A stretch of DNA of 64,000 nt from Radicibacter daui (GTDB lineage: Bacteria > Pseudomonadota > Alphaproteobacteria > Radicibacterales > Radicibacteraceae). Position 1 is the first letter of the stretch. Every line of letters begins with the position of its first letter. Both the position numbers and the translations under genes were made by a program. Shown piece by piece: positions 698-10,121 of the stretch. The DNA lies in the NCBI GenBank assembly GCA_030657355.1, contig CP131056.1:2562501-2626500 (forward strand), written 5' to 3'. The notes below the pieces were generated by a model, which was given only the letters and a program-made list of their open reading frames with translations, searched no databases and was not told where the DNA came from.

Positions 698-1207
698 TCA
701 GATCAGCTTTGCCCGATAGATTTCGGTGGCGGGCAGCGGCAGCAGGCGCTCCGCCATTTCGCGCTTCAGCTCTTCATGGCGCGCTGTTTCGGCCGGGCTT
801 TTGTCCTTTTTGGCGCCGAGGGTCACGAACTCCTCGCGCACATGGCCGGGCGTGATGGTGGCTTCCGCCGTCTTGCCGCGATAGCTGAAACGGAAAAGAT
901 AGGGGCCCGGCAGATCCGTGATCACATCCTTGCCGCCAAGGCTGCGGTCAACGATGAGGCGCCCTTCCGTCAGGGCGCGCGTTACCATCTCCAGCGCATC
1001 GCGCCCGCCGGGGCCGGTGAAGGCGGTGACGATGGAGATTTCGCGCCGCTCCGGCGGCGTATCGGAAAGCAGCGGAAACGCCGCCTGCATGGCCTTCAGC
1101 CCATGCACCACGCCGCCGGGGAAACCACCGCCGTGATACTCCATGATCGACGCGAAGGTGAAAGTGAGATGGGTGCCGTTTTCGGCAACGGTGATGGCGT
1201 CAGACAT
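698..1207 (-). CDS. FmdE-like domain protein lacking the family cysteines
   Basis: A 169-residue soluble protein, last gene of the iron-transport operon. Its start overlaps the end of the preceding gene by 8 bases. The pattern resembles the FmdE (formylmethanofuran dehydrogenase subunit E) domain: an HG...PG segment (YHGGGFPGG, about residue 24), a GxxDALEMVTR segment (about 70) and a following beta-rich FRFSYRGK segment. In usual FmdE proteins the first two segments carry cysteines; here they read FPG and GPGGRD, and no zinc ribbon follows. Metal binding is therefore doubtful and the function unknown. The family call is by pattern only. Confidence 0.5.
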   Translation of the reverse strand: MSDAITVAENGTHLTFTFASIMEYHGGGFPGGVVHGLKAMQAAFPLLSDTPPERREISIVTAFTGPGGRDALEMVTRALTEGRLIVDRSLGGKDVITDLPGPYLFRFSYRGKTAEATITPGHVREEFVTLGAKKDKSPAETARHEELKREMAERLLPLPATEIYRAKLI

Positions 1208-2504
1208 TCAGCCAGGCTTTCAGATTGGGGATGAACCGGTCGAGAAACAGCGTCGTCGCCGGCATGAAATGCGAGCCGTGGTGAAACATCGGATCGAGCG
1301 AGGTGACGATCAGCCGGCCGGGGGTGGAGGCCCCATCCACATAGAGCACCGCCTTCCCTTCCCCATCACGCACCAGCACCTCGGCGCCGGCGGGGGGAGC
1401 GAACCAGCCATGCAGATGCCAGGTGACATCCGCCTTGCCCATACCGGCCATCAACGGGTGCCCGGGCGCGGTGATCTCCACGCCAAGATCGGCCCCCGGC
1501 TCCAGCCACCACCACCAGTTGGTCGGTGTGGGGATGAAGCTTATGGACGGCAGCCACAGTTCGCTGTTGCTCTCGCCGGTGGCCACCACTGTGCCGCCAG
1601 CTGCCAGATGCCGCGCGATCACTGCCTTCTGCGCCATGAGGCGCCCGGCGGGCGAGCGGCAGGGTACCCACAGGATATCATCCGGGCGCAGGGTGTCGCC
1701 CAGTTCCTCCGGCCGGCACACAACATCAAACGCCTCGCTATAACGGGCGCCGAGCAAGCTGTGGGTGTGATAATAACTGCCGCAGGAAGGGGCCACCATC
1801 CGGCGGCGCCCGGCCTTCGCCCGGCGTGACGCCGGATAGGGTTCGGCTGGCATCAGGGGCAAGACGGCTTCCGACCGGGTCACCCCCGCAAGATCAGGGG
1901 CGAGGCACGGGCCGCCCGCGGCCCAGCGGATAATGCGGTCCGTCAGTTCGCCCGGCAGGCCCCATTCCACGCCCAGAGCGCCGAGATCATTGCCGGAATG
2001 GGAGAAGAACCGGCCGCCGCCCGGCATCACCCACACCCAGTCAACCGGCACGCCGGCGGGCCCGAGGCCATTGATCGCCACTGCCCCTTCCGGCAGCGGA
2101 TTGCAGCCGCGACCGTAAAAACCGGCGACGCCCTTGTTGGTCTCCAGCTGTTTGAGGTCGATACCGTCAAACAGCGGATGCGGGTTCAGGCTGTGGAGGT
2201 CAAAATCCGCGCGTTTCGGCTGCCGGATCGGCTGGTACGGCGCCATGCCCTCCACCAGCGGGCGCACCAGATGGCCGTTGAAGAACCAGCGCCCGCCACG
2301 GGCCAGAAAATCGGCGAGGCTATCCTTCATCTCCAGCAGGGCATCCTGATCCAGCTGGTTGTCGGTGATGAGGCCGGAGAAAGAGAGAAGGTGCCGCGGT
2401 GTGAATTCCGCCTGCGGCAGGATTGTCACCTCACCGCGCCCGGCCGCAGCGGCGAGCCGTGGAGGCGGCGCGCCCCAGACGGATTGCAGGTAAAGGACGC
2501 TCAT
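1200..2504 (-). CDS. Tandem GATase1/ThuA-like hypothetical protein in iron operon
   Basis: A 434-residue cytoplasmic protein with no signal peptide or membrane span. Its start overlaps the ABC ATPase by 4 bases and its end overlaps the FmdE-like gene by 8, so translation is probably coupled. Two halves (about 40-200 and 230-430) follow the same plan: a helix ending in ARGG or AAGG, a strand, an NPHPLFDG or PGHPLMAG segment, then a GGR- or PGR-containing strand. This is reminiscent of the glutamine-amidotransferase-like/ThuA fold in duplicate. I see no clear catalytic Cys-His pair in either half. Function unknown; position suggests a role with the imported iron complex or its ligand. Confidence 0.55.
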   Translation of the reverse strand: MSVLYLQSVWGAPPPRLAAAAGRGEVTILPQAEFTPRHLLSFSGLITDNQLDQDALLEMKDSLADFLARGGRWFFNGHLVRPLVEGMAPYQPIRQPKRADFDLHSLNPHPLFDGIDLKQLETNKGVAGFYGRGCNPLPEGAVAINGLGPAGVPVDWVWVMPGGGRFFSHSGNDLGALGVEWGLPGELTDRIIRWAAGGPCLAPDLAGVTRSEAVLPLMPAEPYPASRRAKAGRRRMVAPSCGSYYHTHSLLGARYSEAFDVVCRPEELGDTLRPDDILWVPCRSPAGRLMAQKAVIARHLAAGGTVVATGESNSELWLPSISFIPTPTNWWWWLEPGADLGVEITAPGHPLMAGMGKADVTWHLHGWFAPPAGAEVLVRDGEGKAVLYVDGASTPGRLIVTSLDPMFHHGSHFMPATTLFLDRFIPNLKAWLNV

Positions 2505-3259
2505 GCCGCCTCGATACCGGCAAAAGCCGGCAGGATGGCGCGGCGCTCTTCGCCCTCCGGCCCGGCCACGGAAACCCAGCGCATGGGCACGCCGTAAAGA
2601 CGTCCGAGTTTTTCCGGCTCGATCATCTCATGGACGGGGCCATGCACCTCCTCCCCGCCCGGCATCATCAGCAGCACGTCATCGGCTGCCGCCAGGGCGT
2701 GGTTCGGGTCATGGGTGGTAAAGAGAATGGCCTTGTCGCGCCTGAGGCGCAGCCGGTCCAGCAGCTCCAGCGTGCGGGACTGGTTGCCGAGATCCAGCGC
2801 CGAAGTCGGCTCATCGAACAGCAGCGCGGGCGAGCCGGTGGCAAGCGCCCGGGCAATCAGCACCATCTGGCGCTGGCCGCCGGAAAGGCGATCATAACGA
2901 AGGGTGGCCAGGTGCCCGGCCCCCACCTCCTCCAGCGCCTGCAGCGCGGCTGCCTGATCGCCGGAGCCGGGCTGGCCGAAAAGGCCGAGCCGGGCGGCAC
3001 GGCCCATCACCACTACTTCAAGGCCGGTAAGGCGTGCCTGCGAGGCGCCGTGCTGGGGCACATAGCCGCTGACCGGCGGCGCCTGCCGGCTGCCCTGCCG
3101 CAAGGGCTGCAATCCCAGCAAGGCGCGCAGCAAGGTGGTCTTGCCCCGGCCGTTGGGACCGAGGATGGCCATGGAGCGCCCCACCGGCACGGAGAAGCTG
3201 ATGCCGGAGAAGAGCGTGCGCTCGCCAAAGGCAACGGCAGCATCCTGAAGCCCGATCAT
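2501..3259 (-). CDS. Iron-complex ABC transporter ATP-binding protein (FepC/FecE type)
   Basis: Nucleotide-binding subunit of an iron-siderophore/haem/cobalamin-class ABC importer (252 residues, normal for the family). Walker A is GPNGRGKT at residues 34-41, the signature is LSGGQRQ at about 124, Walker B is LLFDEPTSALD, and the switch His is in TTHDPNHAL. The start overlaps the permease stop by 4 bases and the end overlaps the next gene by 4. It energises import through the permease at 3256-4308. The exact ligand cannot be read from this subunit. Confidence 0.9.
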   Translation of the reverse strand: MIGLQDAAVAFGERTLFSGISFSVPVGRSMAILGPNGRGKTTLLRALLGLQPLRQGSRQAPPVSGYVPQHGASQARLTGLEVVVMGRAARLGLFGQPGSGDQAAALQALEEVGAGHLATLRYDRLSGGQRQMVLIARALATGSPALLFDEPTSALDLGNQSRTLELLDRLRLRRDKAILFTTHDPNHALAAADDVLLMMPGGEEVHGPVHEMIEPEKLGRLYGVPMRWVSVAGPEGEERRAILPAFAGIEAA

Positions 3260-4308
3260 GCCCGGTTCGCCTCCCGGAAATGCCGGCGCAGCAGATAGCC
3301 GAAGACCGGCGCGCCTATGAGCGCGGTAAGCACGCCGAGCGGGATTTCGGCTGCCGTCAGCGTGCGGGCGAGCGTATCGACGAAGGTGAGATAGGCCGCG
3401 CCCAGCAAGGCGGAAGCCGGGATCAACTGCCGGTGATCCTCCCCCACCAGGATGCGGGCGGCATGCGGCACCACAAGGCCGATCCAGCCGACGATACCGG
3501 CCACGGCAACGGAAGTGCCGGTCATCAGAGAAATGGCAATGAAGACATACCAGCGCTCCCGGTCGGGGTTGACGCCGAGCGAACGCGCCTCCTGCTCCTC
3601 CAGCGCCAGCAGGTTGAGCCGGTAGCGCAGGAACCAGATCGCCACGAGGCCCAGCCCCATGCCCGGCACCGCGAGCGCCAGCCGCCCCCAGGTGGCGGTG
3701 GAGAAGGACCCCATCAGCCAGTAGACGATGGCCGGCAGCGAGGTGTTGGGGTCAGCCACAAACTGTATGACGGAGACAAGCGCGGCAAACAGCGCGCCGA
3801 TCACCATGCCGGAGAGGATGACGGTGATCACCTCTGTGCGGCCATTGATGCGGGCCAAAAACCCGACCAGCACAAGCGCACTGAGGCCGAAGACAAAAGC
3901 GAGCCCCAGCAGCACCGTGCCACCGAAACCGAAGAGGATGGCAAGCGCCCCGCCAAAGGCCGCCCCCTGGCTGATGCCAAGCACCTGCGGGGAGACCAGC
4001 GGATTGCGGAATACGCCCTGCAGGGCCGCGCCGCCCACGGCAAGTGCGGCCCCGGAAAGCGCGGCCAGCAGCACACGCGGCAGCCGCACCAGCAGCACGA
4101 TGCGCTCATCCATCTGGGTGATGGCGGCGTGCGGATCGAGCGCGGCAGCGGAGAGGATTTCCGCCACGCGCGGCACCGTCACCGAAAACCGGCCGGCGCC
4201 GATGGAAAACAGCATGGCTGCCACCATCAGCGCCGTCAGCACGCCCCATGTGCCGAAGCGAAGCCCCGGCACAGTGAGGCGACGGCCGAGCGCAAGCGCG
4301 GCCCGCAT
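3256..4308 (-). CDS. FecCD-family iron-complex ABC permease
   Basis: Inner-membrane permease of about 350 residues, usual for the BtuC/FecCD family, with roughly ten hydrophobic segments. Family motifs are visible: LPRVLLAALSGAALAVGGAA, then QGVFRNPLVSPQVLGISQGA, and the coupling-helix segment GWIGLVVPHAARILVG. The ATG at 4308 is chosen because it begins the first hydrophobic region and lies next to the binding-protein stop at 4310. The frame extends further upstream, but that part reads as low-complexity antisense of the neighbouring gene. Confidence 0.9.
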   Translation of the reverse strand: MRAALALGRRLTVPGLRFGTWGVLTALMVAAMLFSIGAGRFSVTVPRVAEILSAAALDPHAAITQMDERIVLLVRLPRVLLAALSGAALAVGGAALQGVFRNPLVSPQVLGISQGAAFGGALAILFGFGGTVLLGLAFVFGLSALVLVGFLARINGRTEVITVILSGMVIGALFAALVSVIQFVADPNTSLPAIVYWLMGSFSTATWGRLALAVPGMGLGLVAIWFLRYRLNLLALEEQEARSLGVNPDRERWYVFIAISLMTGTSVAVAGIVGWIGLVVPHAARILVGEDHRQLIPASALLGAAYLTFVDTLARTLTAAEIPLGVLTALIGAPVFGYLLRRHFREANRA

Positions 4309-4309
4309 T

Positions 4310-5410
4310 TCAGTTGACCGTCCCGCTGGCCTTGAACTGGGCGTAGTTGGTCTCGCCGCCCTGCATCTCGATCCACAGGATGCCGTCGATATCGCCGTCG
4401 GTGAGCTCGTAATTATAGAGCGACTTGTACGCCTTGCGCATTTCGGTGCGCAGGTCGTAGTGGAAGACTTCCGGGTGCAGCAGGTCGGCAATCCACATCC
4501 AGGTCAGCGGGCTTTCCTGGTTGGGCGGGTCCCAGCGGTAGCCGCCGAGCGGCATCTTGTAGACCTTGTGATCCTTGGCGGCGTTGGTCAGCGACAGGAT
4601 GGGGTCGTTATAGACCCAGCTGATATCGAGCTTGGCCTCGAAGCTGTTGAGCAGGATGACGTCCGGGTTCCACTCCGCTACCTGCTCCGCACTGATGGCA
4701 ACACCATTGCCCTCAAGATTGGCCGAGGCCGAAATGCCGCCACCCAACTCGATATAGAAGGTGTTGTAATTACCCTTGGCGCCAGAGGCGAGCATGCCGC
4801 CGAGTGCGCGCTGGAGATAGAGCACGCGGGGTTTCTTGTCCGCCGGAATGGATTTTGAGGTCTCGGCGATCTCGGCCGCCACCCTGTCGCGCCAGCCATT
4901 GATCATCGCTGCCCGCTCGGGTTTGCCCATCGCGGTTGCCACCATGGCCTGATACTGCTGGGCCTTCTCCTCCGTGCCGTAGGAGATCAGCATGGCGGTC
5001 AGGCCGGCATTGGTGATCGGGTCGACAAGGTCGGCCCCGCGATCCGCCCATTGCACCACCAGATCGGGATTGGTGGCGGCCAGCTCCTCGACATTGGGAA
5101 TAAAGTTCGGCGCCGTGATGTCGGAGGGGATGTCCTTCGCCCCGGGATAAATCTTGCCAAGGATGCCTTCCATGATCGCCGACTTGGCCGTCGGGTTCAT
5201 GCCCACCAGTTTGCCGGTGCCGCCATCCATGGTGATGATGGTGGACGCCATGGGGATGGGAATGGACGCAATACGCTCCGCCGGTTTTGCCAGCGTCACC
5301 GTGCGGTTTTCATGATCGGTGATGACGATGGGATCGGCGGATGCGGTGCCGGCAGCGGCCATCGCGGCAAAAGTCAGGAGCGCCACCAGCGGGGCATGAG
5401 CGCGGGACAT
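4310..5410 (-). CDS. Periplasmic iron-complex-binding protein (TroA/FepB fold)
   Basis: A 366-residue binding protein, first gene of the operon. A Sec signal peptide is evident (hydrophobic residues 6-20, cleavage near TASA-DP at 25). The mature start VITDHENRTVTLAKPAERI is typical of Fe-siderophore and cobalamin binding proteins, as is the mid-region NVEELAATNPDLVV. It delivers ligand to the permease encoded just downstream. The upstream gap carries two Fur-like palindromes, supporting iron control. The ligand (siderophore, haem, other chelate) is not determinable from sequence; no TonB receptor lies in the window. Confidence 0.85.
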   Translation of the reverse strand: MSRAHAPLVALLTFAAMAAAGTASADPIVITDHENRTVTLAKPAERIASIPIPMASTIITMDGGTGKLVGMNPTAKSAIMEGILGKIYPGAKDIPSDITAPNFIPNVEELAATNPDLVVQWADRGADLVDPITNAGLTAMLISYGTEEKAQQYQAMVATAMGKPERAAMINGWRDRVAAEIAETSKSIPADKKPRVLYLQRALGGMLASGAKGNYNTFYIELGGGISASANLEGNGVAISAEQVAEWNPDVILLNSFEAKLDISWVYNDPILSLTNAAKDHKVYKMPLGGYRWDPPNQESPLTWMWIADLLHPEVFHYDLRTEMRKAYKSLYNYELTDGDIDGILWIEMQGGETNYAQFKASGTVN

Positions 5411-5431
5411 TGCGGAGCCTCTCGAAGCAAA

Positions 5432-5446
5432 TGAGAATAGTTCTCT
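5432..5446 (-). promoter_or_regulatory. Fur/Irr-like inverted repeat near binding-protein start
   Basis: GAGAA-TAG-TTCTC is a perfect 5-3-5 inverted repeat at 5433-5445, centred about 29 bases upstream of the start codon at 5410. Read as 7-1-7 it is TGAGAAT-A-GTTCTCT, near the classical Fur pattern. It is also close to the alphaproteobacterial Irr element (TTAGAA-N3-TTCTAA). Which regulator uses it is open. Confidence 0.5.
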
Positions 5447-5492: not shown

Positions 5493-5507
5493 TGCGAGTG
5501 ACTCGCA
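5493..5507 (-). promoter_or_regulatory. Perfect 7-1-7 Fur-box-like palindrome
   Basis: TGCGAGT-G-ACTCGCA is an exact 7-1-7 palindrome in the AT-rich stretch 5460-5530 upstream of the iron operon. Fur boxes commonly follow a 7-1-7 plan, and alphaproteobacterial versions often have TGC...GCA ends. Together with the second repeat 47 bases nearer the gene it supports iron repression. Confidence 0.55.
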
Positions 5508-5645: not shown

Positions 5646-6512
5646 TCAAGACCAGTAAAGCCGCGTCGGGTTATCCACCAGCAGCGCCTGCAACTGCTCC
5701 GAACGCGGAGCGATGATCCTGAGAAGGTCCACCAGCGCGCCGTCATCCGGCATGTTCTGGTAGATGTTGGGATGCGGCCAGTCGGTGCCCCACAGCACCC
5801 GGTCCGGGAAACGCTCGACAAGGTAATTGCCGTAGCGCGCCGCATCCTCGAAGGGCGGGCCGGTGCGCGACAGGCGCTCGGAGCCGCTGACCTTCACCCA
5901 GAAACGCTCATCCTCCATCAGCTCCAGCAGCAGGCGGAACGCCAGCTGGTCGACGCCGGCGGCCGGGTCGATGCGGCCCATATGGTCGATGACCAGAACC
6001 ATCTCCAGCGAACGCAGGAACGGCGCCAGCTCTTCCAGCCGGAAAGCATCGAAATGCACCACGGCATGCCAGCCGAGCGGCCTGATCTTCTCCACGATCT
6101 CGCGGATGGCGCCGAAATCGGCCGCGGCACCGAGATGGGTGACGAAGTTGAAGCGCACGCCGCGCACGCCGCCCTCATGCAGGGCCTGCAACTCTATGGC
6201 GGAGATATCCCGCTCCACCATCGCGATACCGCGATAATTGCTGCCTCCCGCGGCCAGCGCATCCATCATCGCGCGGTTGTCGGTGCCATGGCAGCTTGCC
6301 TGCACAACAACAGAGCGGGCGAAGCCCAGATGGCGATGAAGCTCGAACAGTTTTTCCTTTGGCGCATCGACCGGCGTGTAGGTGCTGGAAGCGGCAAAGG
6401 GAAAGACCACCGCCGGGCCAAAGACATGACAATGGGCATCGCAGGCCCCGGCAGGCAGGGCGAGATCCGGCTTCTTGGGAGCCGGGTGAAACGGCAGCGC
6501 CAGTCTGGTCAT
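5646..6512 (-). CDS. ligI: 2-pyrone-4,6-dicarboxylate lactonase (LigI type)
   Basis: Amidohydrolase-superfamily hydrolase, probably opening 2-pyrone-4,6-dicarboxylate to 4-oxalomesaconate in protocatechuate/gallate 4,5-cleavage pathways. The 288 residues match the family's roughly 290. Visible motifs agree with Sphingobium LigI: DAHCHVFGP (His27, His29), QASCHGTDN, GVRFNF (Arg120), IDHMGR (Arg180), catalytic Asp244 in WGTDWPHPN, and C-terminal NPTRLYW. It starts 24 bases after the TRAP permease stop, so it is the last gene of the TetR-controlled operon. Related COG3618 lactonases and galactarolactone isomerases are alternatives, but the conserved arginines favour LigI. No LigAB or LigJ lies in the window. 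Confidence 0.8.
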   Translation of the reverse strand: MTRLALPFHPAPKKPDLALPAGACDAHCHVFGPAVVFPFAASSTYTPVDAPKEKLFELHRHLGFARSVVVQASCHGTDNRAMMDALAAGGSNYRGIAMVERDISAIELQALHEGGVRGVRFNFVTHLGAAADFGAIREIVEKIRPLGWHAVVHFDAFRLEELAPFLRSLEMVLVIDHMGRIDPAAGVDQLAFRLLLELMEDERFWVKVSGSERLSRTGPPFEDAARYGNYLVERFPDRVLWGTDWPHPNIYQNMPDDGALVDLLRIIAPRSEQLQALLVDNPTRLYWS

Positions 6513-6536
6513 GAGATCACTCGCTTTTTTCGATGA

Positions 6537-8471
6537 TTACGGGTGCTGCGTTCTGGGAGCGTGGCTGGCCGGGCGCAGGAAGCGCAGGAGCCCCAGCACC
6601 AGGATGGCAAGGCCCGCCGCCCGGGCGATGAGCGTCAATGCGCTCCCGTCATCCACCGGTGCCGGCCAGGCAACGAGGCAGGCCCCGGCACAGAAGACGA
6701 CCCGCTCCACGACCATCAGCGGCCGGGCGAACCAGCCGGCAAAGCCGATGCTGAGCCCGCTGACCGCCACCGTGGCCAGGATGATCGCCAGCGCGATCTG
6801 CAGGGGCGTGCCGATCATCAGCAGCCCCGGCATGGTCATGAACAGGAACGGCACCAGCAGTTTCACGAAACCCAGCCGCACCGCCTCCATCGCCGTGGCA
6901 TTGGCATTGGCACCGGAGATGCTGGCGGCGGCAAAGGCTGCCAGCGCCACCGGCGGCGTGATGGCCGACACGAGGCCATAATAGAAGATGAACATATGGG
7001 CAGAGATGGCCGGCAGGCCGAGTTTGGTCAGTGCCGGTGCTACCAGCACCGCCAGCAGCAGATAGGCTGCCGAGGTCGGCAGGCCCATGCCGAGCACGAA
7101 GGAGGCCAGCGCCGTCAGCAGCAGGATGATGAAGATGTTGTTGCCGCCCAGCTCCAGAATGAGGCTGGAGAGCATGAGCCCGAGGCCGGTGAGGTTCAGC
7201 ACACCGATCACCACACCGGCAGCAGCCACGGCTGCGACGATCGGCAAGGTGGAACGCAGCGTATCGCGGCAGATGCTGATGATATTGACAAGGCCGATGC
7301 GGGTATCCTTCCGCCAGGGCGAGATCAGCAGCGAAAAGGCGATGCAATAGACGGCCGCACGGGTGGGCGTCAGCCCCATCGCCATCAGCGCCACGAGGCC
7401 GACCAGCGGCAGCAGCAGATAACCCCGGCGGCGCAGCGTCGAGAACAGCAGCTGGATGCCGGCATCGCGGTCCGCCGCAAGGTTGAGGCGCCCGGCTTCC
7501 AGCCGCACCGAGATCATCAGCGCCAGTACATAGAGCAGGCCAGGCACCAGCGCGGCGAGCGCGATCTGGCCATAGGGCACACCCAGAATTTCCGCCATCA
7601 GGAAGGCCGCTGCCCCCATGACCGGCGGCAGGATCTGGCCCGCCGAGGCGGCTGCGGCCTCAATGGCGCCGGCAAGGGTTGCCGAATAACCAACCCGCTT
7701 CATGAGCGGAATGGTGAAGGTGCCGGTCGTCACCACATTGGCAACAGCGCTGCCATTGATGGTGCCAAGAAGCGCGCTGGAAAGCGCCGCGGAAAGGCCA
7801 GGCCCACCCTGCACACGGCCGGTGAGGCCGCGGGCGATATCGACGAACACCTCGCCGGTGCCAACCTTCATCAGCAGCGTGCCGAGCAGCGCGAAGAGGA
7901 AGATGTACTCCACCGCCACGCCCATCGGCACGCCATAGAAGCCTTCTGTCGACAGCATGAGCGTTGAGGTGAGCCGGGCGATGTCATAACCGCCATGGCC
8001 GTATTTGCCGGGAATGAGATAACCGAAATAGGCGTAGAGCAGCGCGGCCACGGAGACGAGAAACAGCGCCCAGCCGATGGAAAGCCGCACCAGCACCAGC
8101 ACGGCCACCAGCAGGCCAACGAATATCCAGCGGTCCACCGCCGTGGACATCGCCCCGTTCATGATGATGTCGAGATAGGAATGCCAGAGCCAGGGGCCGG
8201 GAATGGCCGCGGCAATGGCAAGCAGGTAGAGAATAATCCGCGCCGGAAGCAGCCGGTAGCGCAGGGCGATGGCCGAAAGCCCCGCCGCTGCGACAGCCGA
8301 GAAAAAGAGCGAACGCAGGAGCAGCGCCGTGATGCCCCCGAAATAGGCCCCGTAGATCACCAGGGCGGTGATGAAGAGAGCCAGCAGACAATAGAGTGTC
8401 GAGACAACTGCCCCCTCCCGGCTGCCAATAGCGGCATCCGGCAGGCGCAGGGCTTTGAGGGCGCCAGACAT
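6537..8471 (-). CDS. TAXI-type TRAP transporter fused permease (4TM-12TM)
   Basis: A 644-residue inner-membrane protein with about 16-17 hydrophobic segments, the size of fused small-plus-large TRAP permeases found with TAXI receptors. Family patterns include GTINGSAVANVVTTGTFTIP (about 235), EAAAASAGQILPPVMGAAAF (about 268) and GLPTSAAYLLLAVLVAPAL. It should couple solute uptake to an ion gradient using the receptor encoded at 8512-9447. It lies between receptor and lactonase genes, so the solute may be a pyrone or aromatic acid (inference). Confidence 0.9.
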   Translation of the reverse strand: MSGALKALRLPDAAIGSREGAVVSTLYCLLALFITALVIYGAYFGGITALLLRSLFFSAVAAAGLSAIALRYRLLPARIILYLLAIAAAIPGPWLWHSYLDIIMNGAMSTAVDRWIFVGLLVAVLVLVRLSIGWALFLVSVAALLYAYFGYLIPGKYGHGGYDIARLTSTLMLSTEGFYGVPMGVAVEYIFLFALLGTLLMKVGTGEVFVDIARGLTGRVQGGPGLSAALSSALLGTINGSAVANVVTTGTFTIPLMKRVGYSATLAGAIEAAAASAGQILPPVMGAAAFLMAEILGVPYGQIALAALVPGLLYVLALMISVRLEAGRLNLAADRDAGIQLLFSTLRRRGYLLLPLVGLVALMAMGLTPTRAAVYCIAFSLLISPWRKDTRIGLVNIISICRDTLRSTLPIVAAVAAAGVVIGVLNLTGLGLMLSSLILELGGNNIFIILLLTALASFVLGMGLPTSAAYLLLAVLVAPALTKLGLPAISAHMFIFYYGLVSAITPPVALAAFAAASISGANANATAMEAVRLGFVKLLVPFLFMTMPGLLMIGTPLQIALAIILATVAVSGLSIGFAGWFARPLMVVERVVFCAGACLVAWPAPVDDGSALTLIARAAGLAILVLGLLRFLRPASHAPRTQHP

Positions 8472-8511
8472 ACTTTCCTCCGTTCGCGCTTTTTAGTCCT
8501 TGAAGCGGGCG

Positions 8512-9447
8512 TTACTTGACGCCGGCTTCATCAAAGAAGCGCTTGGCACCGGGATGCAGGGCAATGGGGGTATGGGTTGCCGTCTCCAGCGTGATGGCCT
8601 TGGCCTGCGGGTGGATACCGTGCAGCTCATCGAGGTTCTGGAAGATAGCCCTGGTAATGCCGTAGACGGTGTCGGCAGGGACACTCCCGATGGTGAAGAG
8701 CGTGGCCGGATCGTTGATGGCCACCACGGTTTCGCCCTGGCCCTTGTAGGTGTTCGCCGGGATGTCGAAGAGCTGATAGAAGGGATACTTCTTGATCATG
8801 CCCTCGACCTTGTCCTTGTCGACGGAGAGGAGGTGCATGTTCTGCTGCGTGCTGAGATCGATGAAGGCCGCGGTCGGCGCACCGGCCAGGATAACGGCGG
8901 CGTCCACCCGGCCATTGATCAGCGCGTCAGTCCCCTCGTTATAGGAGAGGAACTGCGCCTTGCCGGCGTCAAACACGCCTTCGGCTTCCAGCAGGCGCTG
9001 GCCGAGCACGGCGGAGTTGGAGCCGGGCGGGCCGAGATTGATACGCTTGCCGGCAAGATCGGCCATCGTCTTGATTCCGCTGCCATCGAGCGCGGCGATC
9101 TGCAGCACGGCCGGATAGAGATAGGCCATGGCGGAGACCGGCAGCTTTTCCTTGAACACCCCCTCGCCCACGCTGGCTTCATAAAGCGTGGAGGAGGATG
9201 AAAGGCCGATGGTCATCTGGCCGGCAGCCACGCGGCGGATATTCTCCACCGACGCACCGGTAACCTCGGCGCGTGCGGTCGCCCCGTCCATGTGCTTGTT
9301 GATGATGTCGGCCATGCCGGCGCCGATGATGTAGAACAGGCCGCCGGTGCCGCCGGTGCCGATCGAGATACGCTCCTCGGCATGCGCAGGCGCACTGAGG
9401 AGGGCCGCCGTCAGTCCGGCAGCCATCAGCAATTTTGTTATTTTCAT
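8512..9447 (-). CDS. TAXI-family TRAP solute receptor
   Basis: Periplasmic binding protein (311 residues). The signal peptide (hydrophobic 6-18, cleavage near AHA-EE) is followed by the family opening ISIGTGGTGGLFYIIG. Further family segments are AAGQMTIGLSSSS and INLGPPGSNSAVLGQRLL. The ATG at 9447 is preceded by GGGAGGAAAT, a good ribosome-binding site; in-frame sequence further upstream belongs to the regulator's shadow. It follows the TetR gene by 23 bases. TAXI receptors generally bind carboxylates such as glutamate or 2-oxoglutarate; this ligand is unknown. Confidence 0.9.
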   Translation of the reverse strand: MKITKLLMAAGLTAALLSAPAHAEERISIGTGGTGGLFYIIGAGMADIINKHMDGATARAEVTGASVENIRRVAAGQMTIGLSSSSTLYEASVGEGVFKEKLPVSAMAYLYPAVLQIAALDGSGIKTMADLAGKRINLGPPGSNSAVLGQRLLEAEGVFDAGKAQFLSYNEGTDALINGRVDAAVILAGAPTAAFIDLSTQQNMHLLSVDKDKVEGMIKKYPFYQLFDIPANTYKGQGETVVAINDPATLFTIGSVPADTVYGITRAIFQNLDELHGIHPQAKAITLETATHTPIALHPGAKRFFDEAGVK

Positions 9448-9470
9448 TATTTCCTCCCAGGGGTTTTGAT

Positions 9471-10121
9471 TTATCCGGTCAGACGAAGCCCCTCCGCCAC
9501 AAGACCGCGAAAACTGGCGTAACTCGCTTCCACCAGATGCTCGACGGCAGCCTCCTTGTTGCTGCCATCCACCGCCCCGCCTGACAGACGCGTCACACGG
9601 TCGGGATTGATGAGGGCGTAATAGAGCGCGCCGAGCAGGAACTGGCTGCGCCACACCAGCCCTTCCAGCGGCGCCCCCGGCAGGCAGCCGGCAATGGCGT
9701 CGATGAAGATGTGGCTGGTTTCGTCGAACGCCTCGGCGATGATGCGCCGCGCCTCGTCATTGCCTTCGGCCGACAGGATGGCGCGCATGCGTGTGAACTC
9801 GGCGCCGCCGCCATCACCCTCGGTCGAGGAGAGATAGGCCGGCACCACATAGGCCCGCAGGATGGCCATCAGCCGCTCGTCGGCATCGCTGATGCGCCTT
9901 GCCTCGCCCAGCAGTTCAAGACGCCGGGCATTCATCGGCCTTGTGTGCCGCTCGTAAATCTCGCGCAGCAGATTGGCCTTGGAGCCGAAATGGTAGGTGA
10001 CGCTGCCGACATTCGCGCCCGCCGCCTTGGCGATATCGCGCATGGAAACGGCATTGAAACCATTCTGGGAAAACAGCTTCACCGCGGCTTCGAACAGGGC
10101 ATCTCTGAGGCTGGCGCGCAT
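9471..10121 (-). CDS. TetR-family regulator of the TRAP/LigI operon
   Basis: A 216-residue one-component repressor. The N-terminal helix-turn-helix is clear (AAVKLFSQNGFNAVSMRDIA, then GANVGSVTYHFGSKANLL). The rest is a helical ligand-binding domain. The ATG at 10121 begins just before the HTH; an extension to 10181 would run through the operator and is unlikely. It is first in the operon with the TAXI receptor, permease and lactonase. A perfect 8-4-8 palindrome 26-45 bases upstream suggests that it represses itself and the operon until a substrate or intermediate binds. Confidence 0.85.
   Translation of the reverse strand: MRASLRDALFEAAVKLFSQNGFNAVSMRDIAKAAGANVGSVTYHFGSKANLLREIYERHTRPMNARRLELLGEARRISDADERLMAILRAYVVPAYLSSTEGDGGGAEFTRMRAILSAEGNDEARRIIAEAFDETSHIFIDAIAGCLPGAPLEGLVWRSQFLLGALYYALINPDRVTRLSGGAVDGSNKEAAVEHLVEASYASFRGLVAEGLRLTG

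Follow-up and report, generated by a model that had tools for sequence, protein, structure and literature searches.

Organization of the operon

The window analysed here is a stretch of 64,000 nucleotides from the alphaproteobacterium Radicibacter daui (contig CP131056.1, positions 2,562,501 to 2,626,500). It carries an operon of five genes that encode the three components of a FecCD-type ATP-binding cassette (ABC) importer and two further proteins, a tandem class-I glutamine amidotransferase (GATase)-like protein, here named GAT, and a small FmdE-like protein. The genes are, in the order of transcription:

4310..5410, minus strand, substrate-binding protein (SBP), Peripla_BP_2, 366 amino acids (aa), signal-peptide-like N-terminus
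3256..4308, minus strand, FecCD-type permease, 350 aa, ATG at 4308
2501..3259, minus strand, ABC ATPase, 252 aa
1200..2504, minus strand, GAT, tandem class-I GATase-like protein without an assigned family, 434 aa
698..1207, minus strand, FmdE-like protein, 169 aa

In the window sequence, the genes for the SBP and the permease are separated by a single base. The permease and ATPase genes share four bases (ATGA), as do the ATPase and GAT genes (ATGA), and the genes for GAT and the FmdE-like protein share eight, ATGTCTGA. Sequence and domain matches bear out the five minus-strand genes that an earlier note on this DNA had described at 5410-698; its overlaps of four and eight bases were correct as well, and one more overlap of four bases is to be added. 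The five-gene order and its overlaps were seen repeatedly across the Rhizobiales, and the genes flanking the set differ freely between relatives. Across the relatives, the four-base overlap of the ATPase and GAT genes was present in 31 loci; the overlap of the GAT and FmdE-like genes measured eight bases in 24 loci, four in 8 and 14 in 7. Such recurrence exceeds chance.

Importer components

All three importer proteins passed the Pfam cut-offs of their families: the SBP as Peripla_BP_2 (48.7 bits, cut-off 27.5), the permease as FecCD (295 bits, cut-off 26.5) and the ATPase as ABC_tran (80.1 bits, cut-off 25). The nearest solved relative of the SBP is 4ovk. The importer itself is of a known kind. 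Among the NCBIfam models, the top match of the permease was BtuC with 234 of the 461 bits required, and that of the SBP reached 48.6 of 325 bits. Import of vitamin B12 was considered and rejected, since BtuC, the top match of the permease, lies far under its cut-off and a riboswitch search found none.

GAT and the FmdE-like protein

GAT had no Pfam or NCBIfam match up to an E-value of 1 and no match in a sequence search of the PDB. Relatives occupy 68 loci among the 84,980 species genomes searched (individual related loci carry L numbers below). GAT is a single protein in the closer group; elsewhere two adjacent genes encode the N and the C half, and hhalign showed homology between them (probability 94.8, E 5e-8). 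The AlphaFold2 model of GAT is confident, with a predicted local distance difference test score (pLDDT) of 87.8, and its C-terminal half matched the class-I GATase-like folds 2gk3, 3soz and 3rht (Z about 14, root-mean-square deviation (rmsd) 2.9-3.0, 184-185 aligned residues). ThuA-like proteins and the GIFT domain of IFT52 were among the fold matches, the latter (5fmr) aligning also to the N-terminal half. The predicted structure thereby supports a GATase-like fold. At the strand-turn where a GATase nucleophile cysteine is expected, a position judged from the secondary structure of the model, the N half reads NGH with an invariant His and the C half TGE with a conserved Glu. The C half further carries the motifs PTNxWWW, TWHLHG and LDPxxHHGSxFMPATT, of which WH and LDPxxH are kept in the majority of the distant members; these conserved residues possibly form a metal or ligand site. 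No GATase family was matched by sequence, and a role as glutaminase is not supported.

The FmdE-like protein scored 17.1 bits against the Pfam model FmdE and thus misses the cut-off of 22.9. Its model is confident (pLDDT 95.9) and matched only 2glz (Z 12.6, rmsd 3.6, 135 aligned residues), 2gvi (Z 11.2) and 3d00 (Z 11.1), the next unrelated structure having a Z of 3.7. In 2glz the metal (Zn/Ni) is held by His15, His17, Cys19 and Cys55 (PMC2954224). The window protein reads HGGGFPGG, in which, by motif and not by atomic superposition, only the first His of these ligands is evident (H25), and the pattern HGHxC was found in none of the 23 aligned relatives. The fifth protein is, by its modelled fold, FmdE-like and not a canonical member; membership in PF02663 was rejected on account of the Pfam cut-off and the metal ligands. 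A PDB sequence search with the profile of the FmdE-like protein had Hax3 as its sole match, a repeat-protein artefact.

The labels under which both proteins had been entered in the earlier note, tandem GATase-like and FmdE-like, agree with the folds of these confident models. One correction to it concerns the FmdE family, whose occurrence next to metal-ion transporters had already been described in 2010: most PF02663 genes adjoin genes of such transporters, and a solved member binds Zn/Ni (PMC2954224).

Association with ABC importers across genomes

The sample at the order level consisted of the window's own genome only, and the class (385 genomes) and the phylum (398 genomes) were sampled in its place, irrespective of the operon. 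All nine GAT loci in these samples, from nine genomes including that of the window, have an ABC importer as same-strand neighbour. Within the class sample, GAT occurred in six genomes, the FmdE-like protein in seven and both in four (hypergeometric P 5.8e-7, uncorrected for kinship); these four genomes belong to four families. An importer lies within 5.5 kb of 59 of the 67 dereplicated GAT C-domains, and some of the other eight are situated at contig edges. The link between GAT and importers is not due to chance. The earlier proposal that the pair acts on the imported ligand was to be given up if orthologues occurred mostly without the transporter; for GAT, the unbiased and the dereplicated counts both show the opposite, and a functional tie of both proteins to the importer is supported.

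The partner in most GAT loci is an importer of the FecCD type. Importers of the Dpp/Nik type with SBP_bac_5 accompany GAT in Sulfurovum, Devosia, Chelatococcus, a metagenome-assembled genome of the Rhodospirillales, a Paracoccaceae plasmid and Paenibacillus, those of the SsuABC type on a plasmid of Chelatococcus and in two genomes of the samples, and an FbpB-like permease, its type judged from annotation and size, in the haloarchaeon Natribaculum. In the haloarchaeal version (L079:6200-11472) the SBP is encoded together with two GAT genes, the FbpB-like permease and the ATPase. FmdE-like proteins alone are found with SsuABC-type importers in E. coli pECOED and Azospirillum; their genes flank or come after an SsuABC/NrtA-type importer (L093:13995-17430 and L097:6494-9513, respectively), and E. 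coli plasmids had two FmdE-like places per record in the search.

In the GAT tree, the four architectures (FecCD, Dpp, SsuABC and FbpB) are mixed, with Dpp and SsuABC partners branching inside groups of FecCD partners. This implies that the transporter was exchanged repeatedly and GAT retained, which favours a role tied to the cargo over one in transporter mechanics. Since GAT, often with the FmdE-like protein, was kept with four importer architectures, the most likely target of the pair is a cargo common to these importers and not one transporter fold. The two proteins might instead be regulators or assembly factors that bind the ATPase and gate transport by metal or ligand status without any ligand chemistry. 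Their translational coupling directly behind the ATPase, the lack of recognisable catalytic residues in GAT and the existence of solved GATase-like and GIFT folds that are structural modules, IFT52 among the matches, would suit such a role. However, the same GAT clades accompany all four ATPase/permease architectures, a change that the protein contact would need to survive, and in L043, L060 and L082 the GAT or FmdE-like genes are transcribable apart from the transporter. We consider regulation or assembly an improbable explanation, though one with some weight.

Candidate iron-responsive operators

The motif TGA-N9-TCA, the iron-responsive operator (IRO) of RirA, was present in 37 of the 61 dereplicated regions upstream of relatives, mostly rhizobial, compared with 3.4 on average and at most 9 in shuffled sequences; other spacings than N9 gave 0-10. 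RirA is an iron repressor (PMC6748827, PMC8822346). The promoter of the window operon is devoid of TGA-N9-TCA and contains two other candidates:

5493..5507, no strand, perfect 15-bp palindrome TGCGAGTGACTCGCA, candidate iron-responsive operator
5431..5445, no strand, Fur-box-like ATGAGAATAGTTCTC, 20 bases before the SBP start, second candidate operator

Sites with at most one mismatch to TGCGAGTGACTCGCA lie at only three places in the 5.06 Mb genome: at the window operon, at a heme-uptake locus with two sites, where the gene for a hemoglobin/heme TonB receptor is divergent from those for HemS and a FecCD permease, and upstream of bacterioferritin. Of two further near copies of ATGAGAATAGTTCTC in this genome, one likewise lies upstream of bacterioferritin. 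The Fur-box score of the window promoter alone is weak (10 of 14, with about 6% of shuffles as good), and weight was therefore given to the recurrence at other iron genes. Two versions of betaproteobacterial type begin with a TonB receptor gene and have a Fur-box-like CGCAAATGATAATCATTTGCA upstream. The haloarchaeal version is preceded by paired TTTTAGGYYGRCCTAAAA palindromes, which resemble a DtxR box. Judged by these motifs, the window operon is probably iron-regulated through an upstream operator. The importer had previously been classed as iron-type; with the IRO of its relatives and a palindrome placed at iron genes, iron is indeed the cargo with the best support for the FecCD form.

In the Rhizobium leguminosarum/Neorhizobium group, a conserved AAAGTGGAGATTTGTAGACAA is located upstream of the SBP (L044, L046, L049, L051, L053, L054, L056, L058, L062, L063 and L069).

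Gene neighbourhoods of related loci

The versions of Methylosinus and Methylocystis sit among TonB siderophore receptors, PepSY-TM proteins and IucA/IucC synthetases. Elsewhere the genes for SBP, FecCD permease, ATPase and FmdE-like protein lead, given a contig of sufficient length, into the carbon-phosphorus (C-P) lyase genes phnGHIJKL. This arrangement was seen in rhizobia and relatives (L004, L005, L020, L021, L027, L029, L035, L074, L084 and L089) and on plasmids of Proteus and Klebsiella (L094 and L095); phnM was not listed beside the annotated copies. Nearly all rhizobial copies linked to C-P lyase have a TGA-N9-TCA box close upstream of the SBP; the arrangement suggests an iron-responsive operon for the uptake and breakdown of phosphonates or iron-phosphonates.

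The linkage to C-P lyase, the SsuABC-type importers among the partners and the hosts Chelativorans and Chelatococcus could also mean that the common cargo consists not of iron but of small anionic metal-binding organic compounds, e.g. phosphonates, sulfonates or polycarboxylates, which are taken up as nutrients and broken down with the participation of GAT and the FmdE-like protein. Yet iron operators precede most FecCD versions, including those linked to C-P lyase, the palindrome of the window operon is shared with heme uptake and bacterioferritin, and catabolic genes are absent from most versions; an organic nutrient as the common cargo is therefore unlikely.

The Dpp-type versions adjoin genes for HupE/UreJ and NicO, which suggests nickel or cobalt as the cargo of some of them. 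Examples are L068:6720-11608 and L065:6706-9211, where a Dpp-type importer is accompanied by HupE/UreJ and a GAT pair, possibly a nickel/cobalt version; L068 additionally encodes NicO and a further, distant tandem GAT protein. If the whole module served nickel or cobalt uptake, the FecCD forms would import chelates of these metals. The NikA-annotated binding protein of L076 and the Zn/Ni in 2glz (PMC2954224) would be in line with this, but the FecCD forms have RirA/Fur-type operators and siderophore neighbourhoods, no nickel or cobalt metalloenzyme adjoins the window operon, and L068 lies far under the cut-off of the NikA models. Nickel import as a general role is supported for the Dpp-type versions only, and we regard nickel or cobalt uptake as the purpose of the module as rather remote.

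In the window itself, the operon is preceded on the same strand by genes for an amidohydrolase (PF04909), a DctM TRAP permease and a TAXI-type binding protein (NMT1_3) at 5646-9654, apparently a separate transport and catabolism unit. On its other side, positions 56-679 hold a convergent alpha/beta hydrolase gene, MhqD/carboxylesterase-like and under the NCBIfam cut-off.

Proposed function

We propose that the window operon, under iron regulation, encodes an ABC importer for a chelate of ferric iron or a related metal, together with two cytosolic partners that process the chelate, an explanation to which we give an even chance. From the protein families, the SBP would capture the periplasmic chelate, which the FecCD permease and the ATPase would import. 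Transcription would be under the control of an iron-responsive repressor, which the associated motifs suggest is probably Fur-like in the window genome and RirA in the Rhizobiales. GAT and the FmdE-like protein would then take over the chelate in the cytosol and either remove the metal or alter the chelator, as enzymes or by metallochaperone transfer, so that iron release or chelator breakdown may take place after import. With somewhat less confidence, the pair may be seen as a widespread, hitherto undescribed cytosolic chelate-processing module of bacteria and archaea that several ABC importer families adopted repeatedly for metal release or chelator alteration once ferric or other metal chelates have been imported.

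Several observations weigh against chelate processing. No substrate-specific NCBIfam equivalog was reached by the importer proteins of the operon, GAT shows no recognisable catalytic triad and no known enzyme relative, and the FmdE-like protein retains only one of the four metal-holding residues of 2glz. SsuABC-type partners are not classical metal importers, and the nickel-related neighbours of the Dpp-type versions point away from iron. Some relatives, namely those of the R. leguminosarum/Neorhizobium group, are without the IRO box. Finally, a backwards control pattern was as frequent in the genome as the palindrome, and the argument from the palindrome consequently relies on the location of its sites and not on their number.

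The handling of the cargo after import is a poorly understood step. Release of metal from imported chelates is known for few siderophores and involves esterases such as Fes or reductases such as FhuF and SIP. Located behind iron operators and without a passing family assignment, the GAT/FmdE-like pair offers a concrete candidate for this step that can be tested, and its candidacy is strengthened by the persistence of GAT with importers of four architectures. If confirmed, chelate processing would provide a functional setting for an unassigned GATase-like family and for FmdE-like proteins, which owe their name to the few members encoded in operons of methanogens, a minority of the family. The version linked to C-P lyase moreover suggests a tie between the uptake of iron chelates and phosphonate breakdown. 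In the open-access literature searched, no report was found on the GAT family or on its link to several importer types, and among publications on FmdE with siderophores, iron uptake or nickel, or on iron importers together with proteins of the GATase-like or ThuA kind, only PMC2954224 was relevant. There is a real chance that the pair represents a new functional module.

Comparison with known systems

The importer resembles the FecCD/TroA importers for ferric siderophores and heme (FhuBCD, FecBCDE and HmuTUV) in its Peripla_BP_2 SBP, FecCD permease, ATPase and iron-type operators. It differs from them in the two additional coupled cytosolic proteins, in the absence of an adjoining TonB receptor gene and in meeting no substrate-specific model. 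The FmdE-like protein shares with the PF02663 proteins 2glz, 2gvi and 3d00 the fold and the place beside metal transporter genes (PMC2954224); in contrast to these, it scores under the Pfam cut-off, lacks most of the ligands and the zinc-finger domain, and is encoded outside any fmd operon. GAT, in turn, is similar in fold to the ThuA-like protein 1t0b, STM3548 (2gk3), the GATase1-like protein 3rht and the GIFT domain of IFT52 (5fmr), with Z-scores of 13-14 for the C-terminal half and identities of only 12-18%. At the strand-turn where the nucleophile cysteine of a GATase would be expected, GAT has His or Glu; it further differs in its conserved H-x-H and D-P-x-x-H-H motifs and in consisting of tandem domains tied to ABC importers.

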